Shown here piece after piece: positions 3,278 through 19,503 of a stretch of 33,939 nt of DNA. Position 1 is the first letter of the stretch. Each line of letters starts with the position of its first letter. The notes beneath the pieces were generated by a model. The model was not told the origin of the DNA. It saw nothing but the letters and a program-made list of their open reading frames with translations, and did not search any database. A program made the position numbers and the translations under genes. Origin of the DNA: a virus; IMG/VR virus record IMGVR_UViG_3300037875_000126, positions 1-33,939 of that record. One strand, given 5' to 3'.

Positions 3278-4085
3278 TCTAGTAGATTCCATATAAAATC
3301 CAAGATCCTTCCAAGTTAACCCAACTATCTCATTCTCAGATCCTATAGATTTGAGATAATTGTTTTGAAGGTATGATCGTTTAGTGATCACAACGTTAAA
3401 TCGTTTATTCACAAGTCTACACATCTTGTGCTTTGATATTAATGTTAATTCCCCTATCTCCCGAGCAAATTTGAAACATCCCAAAGACTTGTGACATATT
3501 CTTCCTATGCTAGAATCCCATCTCTTTACAGTTGCTCGCTGAAACGTGTTAAAACCATTTTCATCAATATCACTAATCATAATGTTTAACTGTTGATCGT
3601 TGATGAGCATTGAATCCTTTTTCATCCACATCATTATTCATAGTATCAACTCGTTTTAAAGATGCTCGCTGTATCCCATCAAGACCATTTTCATCAATAT
3701 CACCAATCATAGTGTTTAACCGTTTAATTGTGGATTCTTTCGAAGATGTGGTTACACCATTAGCATACGCTTTATTGTAAAATAGAGGATTTTCAATAAC
3801 ATTGTGATCTTTTTGTATCATCTCTTCATACATTCGACACACTCTACTATCCATAAACGTTTTAATAACAACACGTTCCAATTGCGATGATCGAGAATCT
3901 TGAAGGATCCTAAAATGCTCGACGGTTGATGATCCATAATAAGTATCTAATTCTGGATCAATGTTATCTTCTTTTAATATTTTGCGTGTTGCGGATCCAA
4001 TATAATACTTCTCCGTTCCTATTGGATTCAAGTCTGTAATCAGATAAACGTAAAAGTTGAGGCCGCTATAAATAGATGTATGCAT
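3263..4085 (-). pseudogene. GIY-YIG endonuclease copy B: frameshifted
   Basis: The leftward frame from 4085 encodes the GIY-YIG domain (FYVYLITD ... KYYIGSATRK, then GSSTVEHFR, LERVVIKTF, and the conserved ENPLFYN) and two copies of a DENG/DEKG-x4-QR-x3-K linker repeat, then stops at 3573. The next frame (3634 to 3263) continues with a third repeat (ISDIDENGFNTFQRATVKR) and the C-terminal domain (RFNVVITKRSY ... TWKDLGFY). Comparing repeat units, the break is explained by an 8-nt deletion (GGTTAAAC) between two TTAAAC direct repeats near 3580, as replication slippage makes. Repair of that indel would give a protein of about 270 residues. It lies between the small genes and gene 32 and explains the roughly 1-kb stretch 3278-4276. 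Confidence 0.85.
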
Positions 4086-5222: not shown

Positions 5223-7784
5223 TTATCGAGCTATCACTGGGTCTGGGTATGGTGATCCAGCGTTAAGTATATTAGTAGTTGAACTATTGTTCACATTAGC
5301 GTTTCCAGATCTTGTTATACCTGATATAGCATTTATTACCTGCTCCATAAACTCTTTATTACCTTTAATCATATTAGCTAGATATATATTAGCCCCATCT
5401 TGGTTACCAGAATTTTTCAATGTTTTATATGTATCAGCTGTAGATTGAGCAGGAGTTAAACTAGATATACCAGCTGTCTTGGAATCATATGTAACAGGAC
5501 CTAACGATTGTCCATCTGCAAAAGCTTCTCCTTCTCCAAATTCAATAGTAATAGTTGGAGTTGATTCTCCTGGAATCGGAACACCTGCATGTTCAGGAAT
5601 CGGAACACCTGCATGTTCAGGGACAGGTTCTATTCCATTTAATCCTCCATCTGCAAGTAGTGTATCGAATACAGTATCACTATCTTTAGAATTCCTTGCA
5701 AGTTTCGTAGCATCTCTTTTAGCTATTCTTTTTTCAGTATCTGCTATTTCATCTGAATAGTCAATAGTCTTAGATCCAAAGAAAGTCCCTTTTTCCTCAA
5801 CCCACTTCATAACTGATAATTTTATATTATCTAGAGCATTGCCTATAGTATCAAAGAGATCTAATATAGGATTAGTTATATACTCATCTACCATACTAGT
5901 AATCTTATCAAATATACTAATATTAACACCTTTATCATCCTCAAACGTTAGCCATCCATTAATCTTATTCTGGATATATTTAACTGGATTTTGCCAAAAT
6001 TCTGATAACCCCATTTTTATAGTTTCCCATGATGGTAAACTCAGCTTCCAATTAGTAAATGATTTCACTATATAACCTTTAGGATCCTTCCAAAATTCTG
6101 ATAACCCTGTCTTTACAGTTTCCCATGATGGTAAAGTTAACATATATGTGTTAAGCTTCGATCCCATCCAACCACCGAAGTCAGTAAGCCATTTAGGCAT
6201 CGATTCTTTTATAGTTTCCCATGATGGTAAAGTTAACATATATGTGTTAAGCTTCGATCCCATCCAACCACCGAAGTTAGTAAGCCATTTAGGCATCGAT
6301 TCTTTTATAGTTTCCCATGACGGTAAATTTAATTTAAACGAGTTAAATGCATTTACTATATATCCTTTAGGATCCTTCCAGAAGTCACCGAACTCAGCTT
6401 TTATAGTTTCCCATGACGGTAAAAGATCCCTCACAAGTTGTCCTATTTTAGCGAAAAATTCGGGTATAGCTTTGAATATATTATCAATTGATTCTGAGAA
6501 AGAGAATTCATCCATCTTCTTCTCTAGGTCGGTACCTCCAAAGAACCCCACAATCCACGAAATTACACTCTTAATGAGATCAAGAGGAGCACCGATAACA
6601 CTCTTGATAACACCTTTATTAAAATTAAGAATGCCTGTGCCTATATCACCAGCTTTAAAATCATCTACACTAGATCGGAAACCTTCATATATACCCATCA
6701 CTGCAGTTAATGGCCAAGCAATCTTACCTAGAATAGTTGCAAACTTACCTAAAAATGTACCTGCTTTCGATAGAGTAGTGCCAAGTGTTCCAGCTTTAGC
6801 AGCTTTAGCAGCTTTAGCAACTTCATCTTTTTTAGGCATTAGAAGAGATAACCCACCAGTTGCAGCAGCTATTGTAGCAGTTTTAGCTACTGCCCCAACA
6901 CTTTTAATCACATTTCCAATAGAACTTGTTGCTGCCTTCATGAGATTCCAAGCTTTACTATTCTTTATGGTATCTGTTATAGTGTTAATCCGAGAGGCAA
7001 TGTTACCACTGAACTCCTTTACAGCATTAGAGGCGTTAAAGAGAGCTCCTCCTAATTTAGTTTTCTTTACTGATTCTGTTATAGCTACACTGCTAGCTTT
7101 AATACTATTTCCCCATTTACTCCAGGCGGCTGTAACTGCGGCGATTGTAGGGAATATAGAAGGAATCTTATTAACGTATGATGATAAACTTTCTTTAACA
7201 TCATTCCAAGCAGCTGCAATTTTATCCCAATTATTATATATACTTTCTAGAGCAACTAAACCAGCTCCAATTGCGATCTTAGTACCATGCTCCTTTAACT
7301 TATCAACCACTGTTTGTTTAGCTTTACCTAAGCCATCTTTGATCTTAACCTTAGATCGCATAGCCACCCCTTTCAAACCAGGAGTCATATCTGCTCTATG
7401 TTCTGCTCTTTCACGTTCCTTCTTAGCCAAAACCTCTACTTTATCAGCAGCATCTTTAGCTGCTTCAATATCCATATCAGTTAATTTATCAGCGTGTGCT
7501 TTAGCTTCTTCAGCAAGCCTATCTGCATTTGATAGACTTGCATCGTGCATTATATCTTTTGTGAGTTGCTCTTGTTTGAAATGTAGATCAGCAGCTCGTG
7601 TTGCAGATTCCACTCCTGATCTCATTTCTTCTCGAATGTTTTTAGCGATATCACCAAAAGCGTCAGGTGTATTATTCTGAGCTGGTATCATTTTCGATAC
7701 TGTTTCAATTAATTCTTTATGACGATTAGCCTCATTCTGATCATTATCTTTAATTTGATTCACGATAGGTAATTTATTTGGCAT
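5223..7784 (-). CDS. Putative tail tape-measure protein (gp29 role)
   Basis: 853 residues. N-terminal 170 residues are charged coiled coil (EEAKAHADKLTDMDIEAAKDAADKVEV region). The centre (about 170-450) alternates helical segments with Ala/Gly-rich hydrophobic stretches (IAIGAGLVAL, AATGGLSLL, IVGFFGG). Then come five exact-length 32-residue repeats starting LPSWETIK (about 455-614), and a Ser/Thr/Gly-rich tail. This build and the place immediately after a tail-assembly chaperone pair with a frameshift and a tube-like gene fit a tape measure. It is longer than T4 gp29 (590), so a longer tail is inferred. The start overlaps the frameshift ORF by 11 nt. A 24-bp tandem duplication (VPEHAGVPIPEHAGVPIP) lies near 5577-5625. 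Another large baseplate-hub protein is possible but less likely. Confidence 0.7.
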   Translation of the reverse strand: MPNKLPIVNQIKDNDQNEANRHKELIETVSKMIPAQNNTPDAFGDIAKNIREEMRSGVESATRAADLHFKQEQLTKDIMHDASLSNADRLAEEAKAHADKLTDMDIEAAKDAADKVEVLAKKERERAEHRADMTPGLKGVAMRSKVKIKDGLGKAKQTVVDKLKEHGTKIAIGAGLVALESIYNNWDKIAAAWNDVKESLSSYVNKIPSIFPTIAAVTAAWSKWGNSIKASSVAITESVKKTKLGGALFNASNAVKEFSGNIASRINTITDTIKNSKAWNLMKAATSSIGNVIKSVGAVAKTATIAAATGGLSLLMPKKDEVAKAAKAAKAGTLGTTLSKAGTFLGKFATILGKIAWPLTAVMGIYEGFRSSVDDFKAGDIGTGILNFNKGVIKSVIGAPLDLIKSVISWIVGFFGGTDLEKKMDEFSFSESIDNIFKAIPEFFAKIGQLVRDLLPSWETIKAEFGDFWKDPKGYIVNAFNSFKLNLPSWETIKESMPKWLTNFGGWMGSKLNTYMLTLPSWETIKESMPKWLTDFGGWMGSKLNTYMLTLPSWETVKTGLSEFWKDPKGYIVKSFTNWKLSLPSWETIKMGLSEFWQNPVKYIQNKINGWLTFEDDKGVNISIFDKITSMVDEYITNPILDLFDTIGNALDNIKLSVMKWVEEKGTFFGSKTIDYSDEIADTEKRIAKRDATKLARNSKDSDTVFDTLLADGGLNGIEPVPEHAGVPIPEHAGVPIPGESTPTITIEFGEGEAFADGQSLGPVTYDSKTAGISSLTPAQSTADTYKTLKNSGNQDGANIYLANMIKGNKEFMEQVINAISGITRSGNANVNNSSTTNILNAGSPYPDPVIAR
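5943..6422 (-). repeat. Five tandem 96-bp repeats in the tape-measure gene
   Basis: The motif for PSWET recurs at exact 96-nt steps (plus-strand TTTCCC at 6407, 6311, 6215, 6119 and 6023). Units 2 and 3 are almost identical DNA (ESMPKWLTNFGGWMGSKL); units 1, 4 and 5 share FWKDPKGYIV-type cores. The 32-residue period is kept without any indel, so the array grows or shrinks by whole units. Confidence 0.95.
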
Positions 7785-7947
7785 TCTCTTTTTCCATTTC
7801 TTTTAAGTGCTTTAACAACAATCCAACATATACTTCTCGTTCCCAAGGAACCAAACTCTCAATTTCTGTCAAGCTCCACTTATGATGTTGTATAAGGCTA
7901 AAATTTATTTCAAAATAAGATTTTAAATCATGAGTGAAGCTAATTAA
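7774..7947 (-). CDS. Frameshift extension of the gp26/51-like protein (GT-type)
   Basis: A 57-codon open frame in -1 relative to the gp26/51-like gene, beginning exactly at that gene's stop (TTA ATT AGC ...) and ending 11 nt inside the tape-measure start. It encodes HHKWSLTEIESLVPWEREVY and a basic, Lys-rich end. This resembles the C-terminal parts of tail-assembly chaperones made by frameshifting (lambda gpGT, P2 E+E'), which also carry a short ILxHHFGWSxxE-type segment. The frame has no ATG until seven codons before its end, so independent translation is unlikely. Product by -1 slippage: 233 + 57 = 290 residues. Function inferred: tape-measure chaperoning in tail assembly. Confidence 0.75.
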   Translation of the reverse strand, partial: LISFTHDLKSYFEINFSLIQHHKWSLTEIESLVPWEREVYVGLLLKHLKEMEKENAK

Positions 7948-8645
7948 AAAAACGAAGATAGACCCTCAAGTCGTATTACATTTACAGTATTACAAATTGG
8001 ACATGGCATAGTAGCTTCGTATACAGTTTTCGGCATATTAGCCATAAACTCATTAACCTTTTTAAATACAGTATCAGGTAAACTCTCAACAAAACTCATC
8101 AACTCCTCATCTGTATAATCAGATGGTTTATGTACAACATCCCCTTCATATATAGACTTAATTAAATGAATAACAACGTTGAACATCTTATCTATATCTG
8201 TATCCCCATTTACCATCTCTAAATTATCCCCAGACGGGTATCTCAACTCCATACCAATATTTTCTGTAATCTCGATTAATGGATTAGGTTTATCTTTAAG
8301 ATCAACTTGAACTTTGTTGAGATCAATTTCTATAGGTATTTCCTCATCACATTTCGTACACCGTTTAGTAGCATTGATAGTATCCCCAACACTCTTCTGT
8401 CTCATTTTAATGAACATATATTCAATATCAAAGAACGGAAGATCACTAAGATTTTTAATATTTCCAAATGTACAATTATCAATAATCTGTAATATAGCTG
8501 ACACCATAGCTTTTTCATCTTTAGACTCAAGAGCCATCAAGAGAATCTTCTCTTCTTTAACTGTGAAACTTCTGTATTTCCATTTCTTCTTAGATGACGG
8601 AAGAGTTAGATTAAATGTTGCTTGTTGTATCTGTGGTAATGCCAT
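7944..8645 (-). CDS. gp26/gp51-family baseplate hub or tail-assembly protein
   Basis: 233 residues from the ATG at 8645 (AAGGA 9 nt upstream; a TTG six nt earlier is less likely). The N-terminal KWKYRSFTVKEEKILLMALES and FDIEYMFIKMRQKSVGD are family signatures of T4-type gp26/gp51 (T4_baseplate family). Two Cys pairs, CTKC (about 107) and CPIC (about 217), suggest one zinc ribbon. T4 gp26 and gp51 act in baseplate hub assembly. It directly precedes the tape-measure gene and ends FF at a seven-U run with a -1 ORF behind it, which makes a tail-assembly chaperone role likely. It starts 25 nt after the gp54-like gene, and shares its late transcript. Confidence 0.8.
   Translation of the reverse strand: MALPQIQQATFNLTLPSSKKKWKYRSFTVKEEKILLMALESKDEKAMVSAILQIIDNCTFGNIKNLSDLPFFDIEYMFIKMRQKSVGDTINATKRCTKCDEEIPIEIDLNKVQVDLKDKPNPLIEITENIGMELRYPSGDNLEMVNGDTDIDKMFNVVIHLIKSIYEGDVVHKPSDYTDEELMSFVESLPDTVFKKVNEFMANMPKTVYEATMPCPICNTVNVIRLEGLSSFF
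7946..7952 (-). promoter_or_regulatory. Slippery heptamer for -1 frameshifting
   Basis: Seven U in the mRNA (TCG TTT TTT TAA). Phe-tRNA in the P site on TTT next to the stop can move back one base onto TTT, giving TTT TTT TTA ATT. The slip site lies directly at the zero-frame stop. No strong downstream pseudoknot is obvious by eye. Confidence 0.7.
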
Positions 8646-8669: not shown

Positions 8670-9263
8670 TTAATTCTTAACTAAAATTTCATGTTTTCTG
8701 TAAGCGAAATTCACTTGAAAATCACTAACTTCTGATGTCGGACCACTCGTATACGTTTTTGGAGTAATATTTAATGGGTATATATCATGAAACTTAGTCG
8801 TCATGATAGTATTAAATTGACGATCTAAATCTTTCAATATACAAGATGATATATAATCATCATAATACATGATAGTATCTTGCTTTAAGGAACTATCAAC
8901 AAAAGCTGATCCCTGCATACCCATTATCCACGCATCCATTAAACCAAACAAATTGTGATCATCTGCATTCAAGAATGTTACCTCTAAATCTGATTCATGC
9001 CCTATACCCGTAACAGGTTTAATATGATTAAACCCATCCCCAACTCTAGGTATATTAGTAGCTGAGTATGGAGAGTATGTAACTCCTTTAACGTATACAT
9101 CCGCAGTAGGGAAAACTTCAGAAGCGTTTGTTAGCGTTCGCCCTTCCCAAAACTGTGTCTCGAGTACTTTCGGGAAACCAGTGAAACTAAAACTGTACAG
9201 ATTATCTCGTGCTAGATCATTCCCCGATTTAAATACAGTTGATGTAAAATGTGATATATTCAT
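8670..9263 (-). CDS. gp54-like tail-tube-fold baseplate protein
   Basis: 197 residues. NDLARDNLYSFSF near the start, GHESDLEVTFLNADDHNLF and LMDAWI in the middle, and the C-terminal SDFQVNFAYRKHEI follow the tube-fold pattern of T4 gp54 (QRNNMFSCVF; LDPLVISFRMDS; MQDWV; TTFDVTFAYRVM). gp54 starts the tail tube on the baseplate. Shorter than T4 gp54 (320), lacking its C-terminal extension, so it could instead be another tube-like subunit. Late promoter GATAAATA ends 6 nt before the ATG with no ribosome site between, so the mRNA may be leaderless. Confidence 0.62.
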   Translation of the reverse strand: MNISHFTSTVFKSGNDLARDNLYSFSFTGFPKVLETQFWEGRTLTNASEVFPTADVYVKGVTYSPYSATNIPRVGDGFNHIKPVTGIGHESDLEVTFLNADDHNLFGLMDAWIMGMQGSAFVDSSLKQDTIMYYDDYISSCILKDLDRQFNTIMTTKFHDIYPLNITPKTYTSGPTSEVSDFQVNFAYRKHEILVKN

Positions 9264-10419: not shown

Positions 10420-10446
10420 AACTATTATCATTTTATGTGGTATAAT
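10417..10446 (+). promoter_or_regulatory. T4-type early promoter facing the endonuclease gene antisense
   Basis: TATCATTTTATGTGG followed by TATAAT (10441-10446) is identical over the core to the promoters of genes 33 and 32, but the -35 region (ATCAAC) is weaker. Rightward, the next sense gene is gp48, more than 1 kb away; the transcript would be antisense to the endonuclease. The last codons of that endonuclease (YYYTT and stop) are the complement of this promoter. Confidence 0.6.
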
Positions 10447-11434
10447 AATAAAAACCAACATCTCTCCACGTCTTTCTGGTAAAATTCTCCCCTAGTGATT
10501 GAAGAAACGGACTTCTAATAAATGATTTGTTGCAGATGGTAGCATCTAGATTTTTAAAATATCTCCGAATTATTCTAAGTGATGTGCAACAACCATACAC
10601 ACTCTTAATAGCGTGATGTAAATCTACAATCGTGTGATACTCTCCAACTCCTTTGAATCCATAACACTTGTGTCCATAATTGGTCTCTAATCTTTTCCGT
10701 GTTTGCTCCTTACCAATAGTAGCCTTCCATGTTTCATCACTAACAGTTGCAACTTGTTTAGCTATACCCTCTTTACCAATAGTAGCCTTCCATTCAGGAT
10801 CACTAAATATTTTAAGTTGTTTAGCTATACCCTCTTTACCAATAGTAGCCTTCCATTCAGGATCACTAATCGTTTTAGATCGTTTAATCATACCCTCTTT
10901 ACCAACAGTTGCCATCCACTCAGGATCATTAATCGTTTTAGATCGTTTAATCATACCCTCTTTACCAACAGTTGCCTTCCACTTAGGATCATTAATCGTT
11001 TTAGATCGTTTAACCATACCCTCTTTACCAACAGTTGCCTTCCACTTAGGATCATTAATCGTTTCACATTGTTTAGCTGTAGACTCAGGAGTATTAGTCA
11101 TGTTGCAGTTAGCATAAGATAAATTGTAAAATAATGGATTAGAAGCTACTTCGTGGTCTCTCTGTAAAAACTCTTCATACTCAAGACACTCTTTAGAGTT
11201 ATTAAACGTTTTAACTACAACACGTTCTAATTGAGATGAGCACACATCTTGAAGACTTCTGAAATATTTAACATATGATGATCCAAAATATCTGTGATTT
11301 TCGGGATCAATGTTATTTTCTTGAAGTTCCTTCCGAGTAGATGATCCAATATAATACCTCTCTGTTCCTATAGGATTAAGATCAGTAATAAGATAAACGT
11401 AAAAATTGTTACCATTATAAATAGACGTATGCAT
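10433..11434 (-). CDS. GIY-YIG homing endonuclease copy C (intact)
   Basis: 333 residues. GIY-YIG domain at 11-95: FYVYLITD (GIY segment as YVY), YYIGSSTRK (27-35, with the conserved Arg), LERVVVKTF and YEEFLQRDH (Glu for catalysis). Six tandem 21-residue repeats follow at 125-250 (TINDPEWKATVGKEGMIKRSK-like, given here in 20-residue part as INDPEWKATVGKEG). The C-terminal domain (IVDLHHAIKSVYG, then SFIRSPFLQSLGE and KTWRDVGFY) is probably sequence-specific DNA binding. It is the only unbroken member of a four-copy family here, so it is the likely active homing enzyme. Leftward late promoter at 11499-11506, leader about 64 nt. It is located between two oppositely directed late operons. Confidence 0.88.
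   Translation of the reverse strand: MHTSIYNGNNFYVYLITDLNPIGTERYYIGSSTRKELQENNIDPENHRYFGSSYVKYFRSLQDVCSSQLERVVVKTFNNSKECLEYEEFLQRDHEVASNPLFYNLSYANCNMTNTPESTAKQCETINDPKWKATVGKEGMVKRSKTINDPKWKATVGKEGMIKRSKTINDPEWMATVGKEGMIKRSKTISDPEWKATIGKEGIAKQLKIFSDPEWKATIGKEGIAKQVATVSDETWKATIGKEQTRKRLETNYGHKCYGFKGVGEYHTIVDLHHAIKSVYGCCTSLRIIRRYFKNLDATICNKSFIRSPFLQSLGENFTRKTWRDVGFYYYTT
10685..11062 (-). repeat. Six tandem 63-bp repeats in the GIY-YIG gene
   Basis: Each unit encodes T-[IV]-[NS]-D-[PE]-x-W-x-A-T-[VI]-G-K-E-x6, 21 residues. The units nearest the GIY-YIG domain are almost identical DNA; the distal ones are more diverged, suggesting recent expansion at the proximal side. These sit in the linker where other GIY-YIG enzymes have NUMOD-type minor-groove modules. 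Confidence 0.93.
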
Positions 11435-18639: not shown

Positions 18640-19503
18640 TCATAACTCTAATACATCCATGAAAATACCCATATTCTTATAAGATCCCCATTTTTTATTA
18701 TAATCTTTAAAGTCTATAGCATTTATCTTATTACCATAGAACATTAAATTCATACCAACGACATTAGATACATCCCAATTGCTTATATCATCAGTGAACT
18801 TAGAATCTCTAAACATCGAATTCATACCAACGACATTAGATACATCCCAATTGCTTATATCATCAGTGAACTTAGAATCTCTAAACATCGAATTCATATT
18901 AGTTACTTTAGATGTATTCCAATCACTTATATCATCATCGAACTTAGAATTTCGAAACATCGAATCCATCATAGTAACATTAGATACATCCCAGCCACTT
19001 ATATCACCATTAAAGACAGAATCACTGAACATAAAACTCATATTGGTAACATTAGATACATCCCAGCCACTTATATCACCATTAAAGACAGAATCACTGA
19101 ACATAAAACTCATATTAATTACATTAGATACATCCCACTCACTTATGTCACCATTAAAATTAGAGTTTTTGAACATTGAATTCATATATTTAACTTTAGA
19201 TACAACCCATTTACTTATATCACCATTAAAGACAGAATCACTGAACATAAACCACATATTATCAACACTAGATACATCCCACTTACTTATATCACCATTA
19301 AATTGTGAATTATTATATAACATATAACTCATGTCAGTAACATTAGATACATCCCATTTACTTATATCTCCATTGAACTTAGAACTACTGAACATAAAAC
19401 TCATATCACGAACATTTGAGACATCTAAGTCATTAAGATCAGCATCATCAGCTCTCTCTTTAATTATACTTTTTAAATGTTTATTATCTTTAACTTTAAT
19501 CAT
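18640..19503 (-). CDS. DUF285/BspA-type (PARCEL) repeat protein
   Basis: 287 residues: a 27-residue N-terminus (MIKVKDNKHLKSIIKERADD), then nine 24-residue repeats of the form VSNVTNMSFMFSDSVFNGDI-SxWD and a partial one, ending in a cap (KKWGSYKNMGIFMDVLEL). This is the DUF285 / palindromic amphipathic repeat (PARCEL) family, in bacteria mostly surface lipoproteins. Here there is no signal peptide or lipobox, so an intracellular role is likelier. Repeats 8 and 9 are identical at DNA level. Transcribed leftward from a T4-type early promoter at 19771-19800, unlike its late structural neighbours, which marks it as an inserted early gene. Function unknown. Confidence 0.85.
   Translation of the reverse strand: MIKVKDNKHLKSIIKERADDADLNDLDVSNVRDMSFMFSSSKFNGDISKWDVSNVTDMSYMLYNNSQFNGDISKWDVSSVDNMWFMFSDSVFNGDISKWVVSKVKYMNSMFKNSNFNGDISEWDVSNVINMSFMFSDSVFNGDISGWDVSNVTNMSFMFSDSVFNGDISGWDVSNVTMMDSMFRNSKFDDDISDWNTSKVTNMNSMFRDSKFTDDISNWDVSNVVGMNSMFRDSKFTDDISNWDVSNVVGMNLMFYGNKINAIDFKDYNKKWGSYKNMGIFMDVLEL

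Follow-up and report, generated by a model that had tools for sequence, protein, structure and literature searches.

A probable -1 frameshift joining a gp26-like tail-assembly chaperone to a gp51-type extension in a T4-type phage, at a slip site deviating from that of its relatives

The stretch of DNA analysed here (the window) comprises positions 1-33,939 of the virus record IMGVR_UViG_3300037875_000126 and is a fragment of a T4-type myovirus; all coordinates refer to it. Its minus strand carries a gene for a gp26-like protein of 233 amino acids (7944..8645), identified by Pfam, PHROG and a structure model as a short tail-assembly chaperone (TAC) of the TAC-N or G-like type. The gene is followed in the -1 frame by an open extension of 57 codons and a stop (7774..7947, minus strand), a gp51 C-terminal or GT-type T domain. 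An original prediction, made from the sequence alone, had placed a likely programmed -1 frameshift between the two. The gp26-like protein matched Pfam PF12322 (T4_baseplate) with E=1.1e-58, above the curated cut-off, and PHROG 150 with E=4e-60. An AlphaFold2 model of this short form had a predicted local distance difference test score (pLDDT) of 91.6 and matched T4-like gp26 proteins and, more weakly, gp51-type proteins among the predicted structures of BFVD; a PDB fold search with the model for a solved TAC fold yielded nothing at E<=0.001. The 3' end of the gene reads ...CTT GAG GGT CTA TCT TCG TTT TTT TAA, and the predicted terminal TCG TTT TTT TAA was borne out at 7955..7944 (minus strand). 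Direct reading of the sequence places the slip site, G TTT TTT T(AA), at 7946..7953 (minus strand), with the T run at 7952..7946 and the G at 7953.

Read from 7947, the extension is LISFTHDLKSYFEINFSLIQHHKWSLTEIESLVPWEREVYVGLLLKHLKEMEKENAK. It begins with LISFTHDLKSYF, ends with ...KENAK before the stop at 7776..7774, and overlaps the ATG (7784) of the next gene, a putative tape-measure gene, by 11 nucleotides (nt). The predicted length of 57 codons up to the start of this gene was confirmed, as was the lack of an ATG but for one, seven codons before the end. The earliest in-frame TTG already belongs to the conserved domain. The claim that the -1 frame opens exactly at the end of the gp26-like gene had to be corrected. 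The frame is open from 7965, already 19 nt before the TAA, to 7774, and the preceding -1 stop is the TGA within CTTGAGGG. Any shift would thus have to take place within this short interval, where nothing but the T run looks slippery. Each of the other two frames has six stops over the extension. The 57 amino acids alone matched PHROG 634, 'baseplate hub assembly catalyst' (gp51), with E=1e-23, and tblastn of the extension matched 535 phage records at E<=1, chiefly of Synechococcus and Prochlorococcus phages, but also of phages of Vibrio, Sinorhizobium, Agrobacterium, Methylophilales, Pelagibacter and Pseudomonas. With these matches, the open -1 frame is more than a chance occurrence.

Loci of relatives were gathered by scans of viral contigs and from annotated records. 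Two hundred and four loci including the window were retained, non-redundant at 90 % nucleotide identity and with both gp26 and the extension placeable; among them are loci of Kyanoviridae cyanophages, of pelagiphages and methylophages, of phages of rhizobia and of a Schizotequatrovirus Vibrio phage. The original prediction had proposed the conservation and Ka/Ks of the -1 frame in relatives as a check. The extension lies in the -1 frame relative to gp26 in 204/204 loci, and 81 independent pairs of relatives gave a ratio of non-synonymous to synonymous substitution rates (dN/dS) of 0.10 in this frame versus 1.08 and 2.73 in the other two. The extension is under strong purifying selection. Locus L114 stood outside the frame count because stops inside its gp26 leave the frame not assignable; its extension and T_TTT_TTC run are nevertheless intact, and the several stops are probably due to a sequencing or assembly frameshift.

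At the 3' end of gp26, T_TTT_TTN was present in the zero-frame register in 203 of the 204 loci, with the last codon TTC in 151, TTT in 45, TTA in 6 and TTG in 1. The first 154 loci were compared with an expectation from amino acids and codon usage: xxT TTT was observed 154/154 times and expected 66 times, an excess whose log-probability is not a formal P value since the loci share descent. Other x-Phe-Phe sites in the same genes, taken as control, carry xxT TTT at 12/157. The slip motif is therefore unexplained by the protein sequence. The residue before the slip Phe-Phe varies (Ser, Asp, Asn, Ala, His), and the third base of its codon is always T outside the window. The window is the sole exception, with G at 7953 where the 203 other loci have T; its nearest relatives, at about 50-53 % protein identity, read AAT TTT TTC and AGT TTT TTC. 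An assembly error as source of the deviant site is disfavoured, as the same sequence occurs in five other IMG/VR contigs (L004-L008), possibly from related samples, that are 100 % identical to the window locus over up to 3 kb. The Pseudomonas phage PAK_P1, whose genus has lately been reported to shift frame in its TAC gene at a GTTTTT-type motif, was considered as a precedent and rejected: its site (L259:11059), TCG GTT TTT TCT, has the G at codon position 1 and hence a different register from the window.

Elements resembling frameshift stimulators flank the slip site. Upstream, the window has GAGGG (7963..7967, minus strand), 9 nt away from G TTT TTT; its Shine-Dalgarno-like sequence and the enrichment across the family make it a candidate stimulator. 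In a conserved Glu-Gly pair that precedes the slip codon by two codons, GAG encodes the Glu in 88/140 cases versus 859/3220 (27 %) elsewhere in the genes (p=3e-18), and the Leu codon preceding Glu-Gly ends in G in 63/104 versus 29 % elsewhere (p=6e-11); both P values ignore the relatedness of the loci. Together these preferences create, about 10 nt ahead of the slip site, a GAGG or GGAGG that resembles a Shine-Dalgarno sequence. Downstream, folding predicted in the window a stem of 9 base pairs (bp) starting 5 nt after G TTT TTT, with the 5' arm AGCTTCACT (7933..7941, minus strand) and the 3' arm AGTGGAGCT (7872..7880, minus strand). Its minimum free energy (MFE) is -17.2, with a dinucleotide-shuffle z of -3.55. 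Across the family the downstream region had a mean MFE of -15.5 versus -11.0 in synonymous shuffles (standard deviation of the shuffle means 0.18), and 79/204 loci had their longest helix begin 5-8 nt past the heptamer, versus 36 (standard deviation 6) in shuffles. The stems differ by clade in sequence and in 3' partner, e.g., AGTATGGCTCA/TGAGTCATACT, ATGTTGAGTCAT/ATGATTCAACAT and GGCTCAGTCA/TGACTGAGCT, so that the position of the stem is better conserved than its sequence. For the window alone, the stem and GAGGG are suggestive as stimulators.

Frame conservation, dN/dS, the near-invariant heptamer of the relatives, the stimulator-like elements and gp51 homology strongly support the predicted programmed -1 frameshift, and on the strength of sequence comparison -1 recoding probably fuses the gp26-like chaperone to the gp51-type extension in the window phage. 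The majority of ribosomes would halt at the TAA and release the short, gp26-like chaperone (TAC-N). A minority would slip back by one base on the U run, at the place where relatives have U_UUU_UUN, and enter the -1 open reading frame (ORF), giving a long chaperone (TAC-NC), ...LSSFF-LISFTHDL...KENAK, with a gp51-type C-terminal domain; the predicted fusion peptide across the junction is SSFFLISFTHDLK. It would probably be the ribosome that slips, at G_UUU_UUU, one step later at U_UUU_UAA, or at both, and the upstream GAGGG and the stem starting 5 nt downstream probably assist it. If the two products act as lambda G and GT do, coating of the tape measure would fall to the short form and recruitment of tail tube subunits to the long one. 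From these comparisons we infer that slippage occurs in the window phage, and likewise its efficiency, its register and the chaperone function of its products. Several observations weigh against the frameshift in this phage. A canonical X_XXY_YYZ heptamer is not present in the window, where G_TTT_TTT abuts the TAA, and with G in place of the first T a simultaneous slippage of two tRNAs leaves a first-position mismatch in the P site. Anti-Shine-Dalgarno pairing in the window is no stronger than the synonymous expectation, and compared with synonymous shuffles its stem stands out only moderately (P=0.009 to 0.048). As the sequences of L004-L008 are all identical to the window, its clade shows no polymorphism and thus offers no variation for testing.

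The original prediction had the shift take place at the stop codon itself, a sub-variant of the frameshift in which, with the UAA waiting in the A site, only the peptidyl-tRNA-Phe of the P site moves back on U_UUU_UAA, from UUU to UUU. The claim was not established; relatives carry T_TTT_TTN, usually one codon before the stop. The T run of the window does abut the TAA, and only this slip permits perfect re-pairing; a heptamer abutting the stop is also found in 14 of the 155 loci for which stop distances and start codons were counted. Most relatives, however, have at least one sense codon between heptamer and stop, and the window stem lies only 2 nt from T_TTT_TAA, whereas its distance of 5 nt from G_TTT_TTT is the family spacing. 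We regard a slip at the stop codon as possible, with clearly less than an even chance. Both slips predict one and the same protein (...SSFF LISF...). G_UUU_UUU is favoured by the family stem position and the homologous register, U_UUU_UAA by perfect re-pairing and the adjacent stop.

Slippage of the RNA polymerase rather than the ribosome would likewise lead to a fusion if one U were added in the run of seven T, the longest homopolymer of the overlap: a part of the mRNAs would then read TCG TTT TTT TTA ATT and encode the two parts in frame. The T run is, however, only six long in most other loci (T_TTT_TTC), and the stems and Shine-Dalgarno-like motifs stand at distances appropriate for ribosomes. 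Both facts disfavour transcriptional slippage as the mechanism of the family, and we consider it unlikely. Still less probable is a separate small gene, the 'gp51' of cyanophage annotations, translated by reinitiation after the gp26 stop. Annotators routinely call the extension a gene, and some relatives, e.g., P-SSM2, do have an ATG soon after the slip site; but 90/155 loci have no ATG and 67/155 no ATG, GTG or TTG ahead of the conserved core, and the heptamer is near invariant across loci while start codons are not. For the window a gene with its own start was rejected, as its earliest in-frame TTG within the conserved domain leaves no usable start codon. A decaying locus, with a -1 ORF left over from a productive frameshift that the window lineage no longer performs, might be read from the window alone of 204 loci being without the canonical heptamer, but it is the least credible explanation and very improbable: the -1 ORF is intact and keeps the conserved core residues of the extension, synonymous differences per site to L183, the nearest relative at the extension, far exceed non-synonymous ones (18.25/25.2 versus 29.75/109.8 sites), and the identical sequence is present in several assemblies.

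The -1 frameshift as proposed here has parallels in known systems. In the dnaX gene of E. coli, a Shine-Dalgarno-like motif about 10 nt upstream and a stem a few nt downstream accompany the slip sequence A_AAA_AAG. The phage family likewise combines an upstream Shine-Dalgarno-like motif, a slippery run and a nearby downstream stem, but its slip sequence is U-rich and its stem varies among relatives. The slip site of lambda G/GT is G_GGA_AAG and differs from G_TTT_TTT of the window. The lambda genes, with a programmed -1 frameshift (Xu et al. 2004, as cited in PMC5009743 and PMC10885494), lie between tail tube and tape measure and provide a short chaperone along with smaller amounts of a form extended in the -1 frame, an arrangement predicted here as well. 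No family or PDB match joins the window protein to lambda G, although the two sequences were not compared directly.

T4 itself makes a frameshift dispensable. Its gp26 (208 amino acids) is homologous to the short form and without extension. Its gp51 (249 amino acids) aligned to residues 23-279 of the 290-residue fusion protein (BLASTP E=1e-7 in a three-protein set); the C terminus of gp51 matched the hidden Markov model (HMM) of the extension with E=8e-6, the N-terminal part that of gp26 with E=1e-4. This homology of the fusion, next to the PHROG 634 match, supports the predicted identity of the extension as GT-type. As gp51 unites a gp26-like domain and the same extension in one reading frame, T4 seems to encode short and long chaperones separately, in two divergently oriented genes, where the family would use frameshifting. 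The Vibrio phage V05, a Straboviridae relative of T4, kept the T_TTT_TTC arrangement. Possibly, though at somewhat less than even probability, the window lineage swapped U_UUU_UUN for a stop-coupled or single-mismatch G_UUU_UUU_UAA, retuning the ratio of short to long form with the protein unchanged, and T4 dropped frameshifting by gene duplication and in-frame fusion of the extension.

Vladimirov, Gautam and Davidson (2022, Virology 566:9-15) reportedly identified TAC genes of T4-like phages. Their study is the reference given for the presence of a short TAC gene besides a long, fused one in some T4-like phages (PMC10885494) and for poly-T sequences as slip signals in the TAC-N genes of such phages (PMC12846349). 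Going by these citations, the link of gp26 and gp51 to tail-assembly chaperones, drawn rightly in the original prediction, was already published, as was most of the TAC concept in T4-like phages (Vladimirov et al. 2022). By homology and the known T4 gene products, those genes represent the same protein families as in the window; the window differs by its slip site, G_TTT_TTT abutting the TAA instead of T_TTT_TTN. In the literature searched, neither the deviant slip site nor the stem and Shine-Dalgarno statistics were found, although the article of Vladimirov et al. (2022) may report the stem and Shine-Dalgarno part; as far as this literature shows, the deviant site and the family-wide statistics are new. 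According to a review of 2010, gp51 is essential in T4, with a function then unknown (PMC3004832). The relation found here leads to a simple prediction: one and the same chaperone has gp26 as its short and gp51 as its long form, and frameshifting would supply both in these T4-type relatives. The 204 loci offer a natural series of slip sites, Shine-Dalgarno-like motifs and stems for studies on the tuning of frameshift ratios, and the window, as the sole natural exception in the slip site, lends itself to testing what share of the heptamer can be dispensed with.

Start codons are annotated at differing places in the gene 'gp51 / baseplate hub assembly catalyst' of L002, L003, L169, L171, L178 and other cyanophage-type records. 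This small gene is probably the 3' part of the frameshift product, which suggests that the small 'gp51' annotated in many cyanophage records is no gene of its own.

On the minus strand the genes follow in the order head closure (gp4-like), DNA end protector (gp2-like), tail tube, gp26-like gene, extension and a protein of 853 amino acids; the plus strand of the window carries genes for the tail tube cap, baseplate wedge and hub-lysozyme. The order tail tube, chaperone, extension, tape measure had been predicted. The tail tube gene, directly upstream of the gp26-like gene (8670..9263, minus strand), was verified by PHROG 45 (E=4e-20), while the tape measure is assigned by position and composition only. 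This putative tape-measure gene (5223..7784, minus strand) encodes a protein with internal repeats and no cysteine, for which family searches (PHROG, Pfam) gave no match at E<0.01; the phiM12 gene in the corresponding neighbourhood is annotated 'similarity to phage tape measure proteins'. Within the gene lies a tandem repeat of 96 bp (32 amino acids) at 6112..6332 (minus strand). In contig L006, which is otherwise identical, the number of repeat copies in this reading frame seems to differ, a change that may alter tail length or be an assembly artefact. Between the gp4-like and gp48-like genes, a homing-endonuclease-like gene (10433..11434, minus strand) showed weak HNH/GIY-YIG matches and about five copies of a 63-bp repeat; a second weak match to that endonuclease family (PHROG 7504) was obtained at 3573..4085 (minus strand). 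About 9.5 copies of a 72-bp repeat occupy 18739..19425 within the minus-strand ORF 18640..19503, which lies in a low-GC, strongly skewed stretch.

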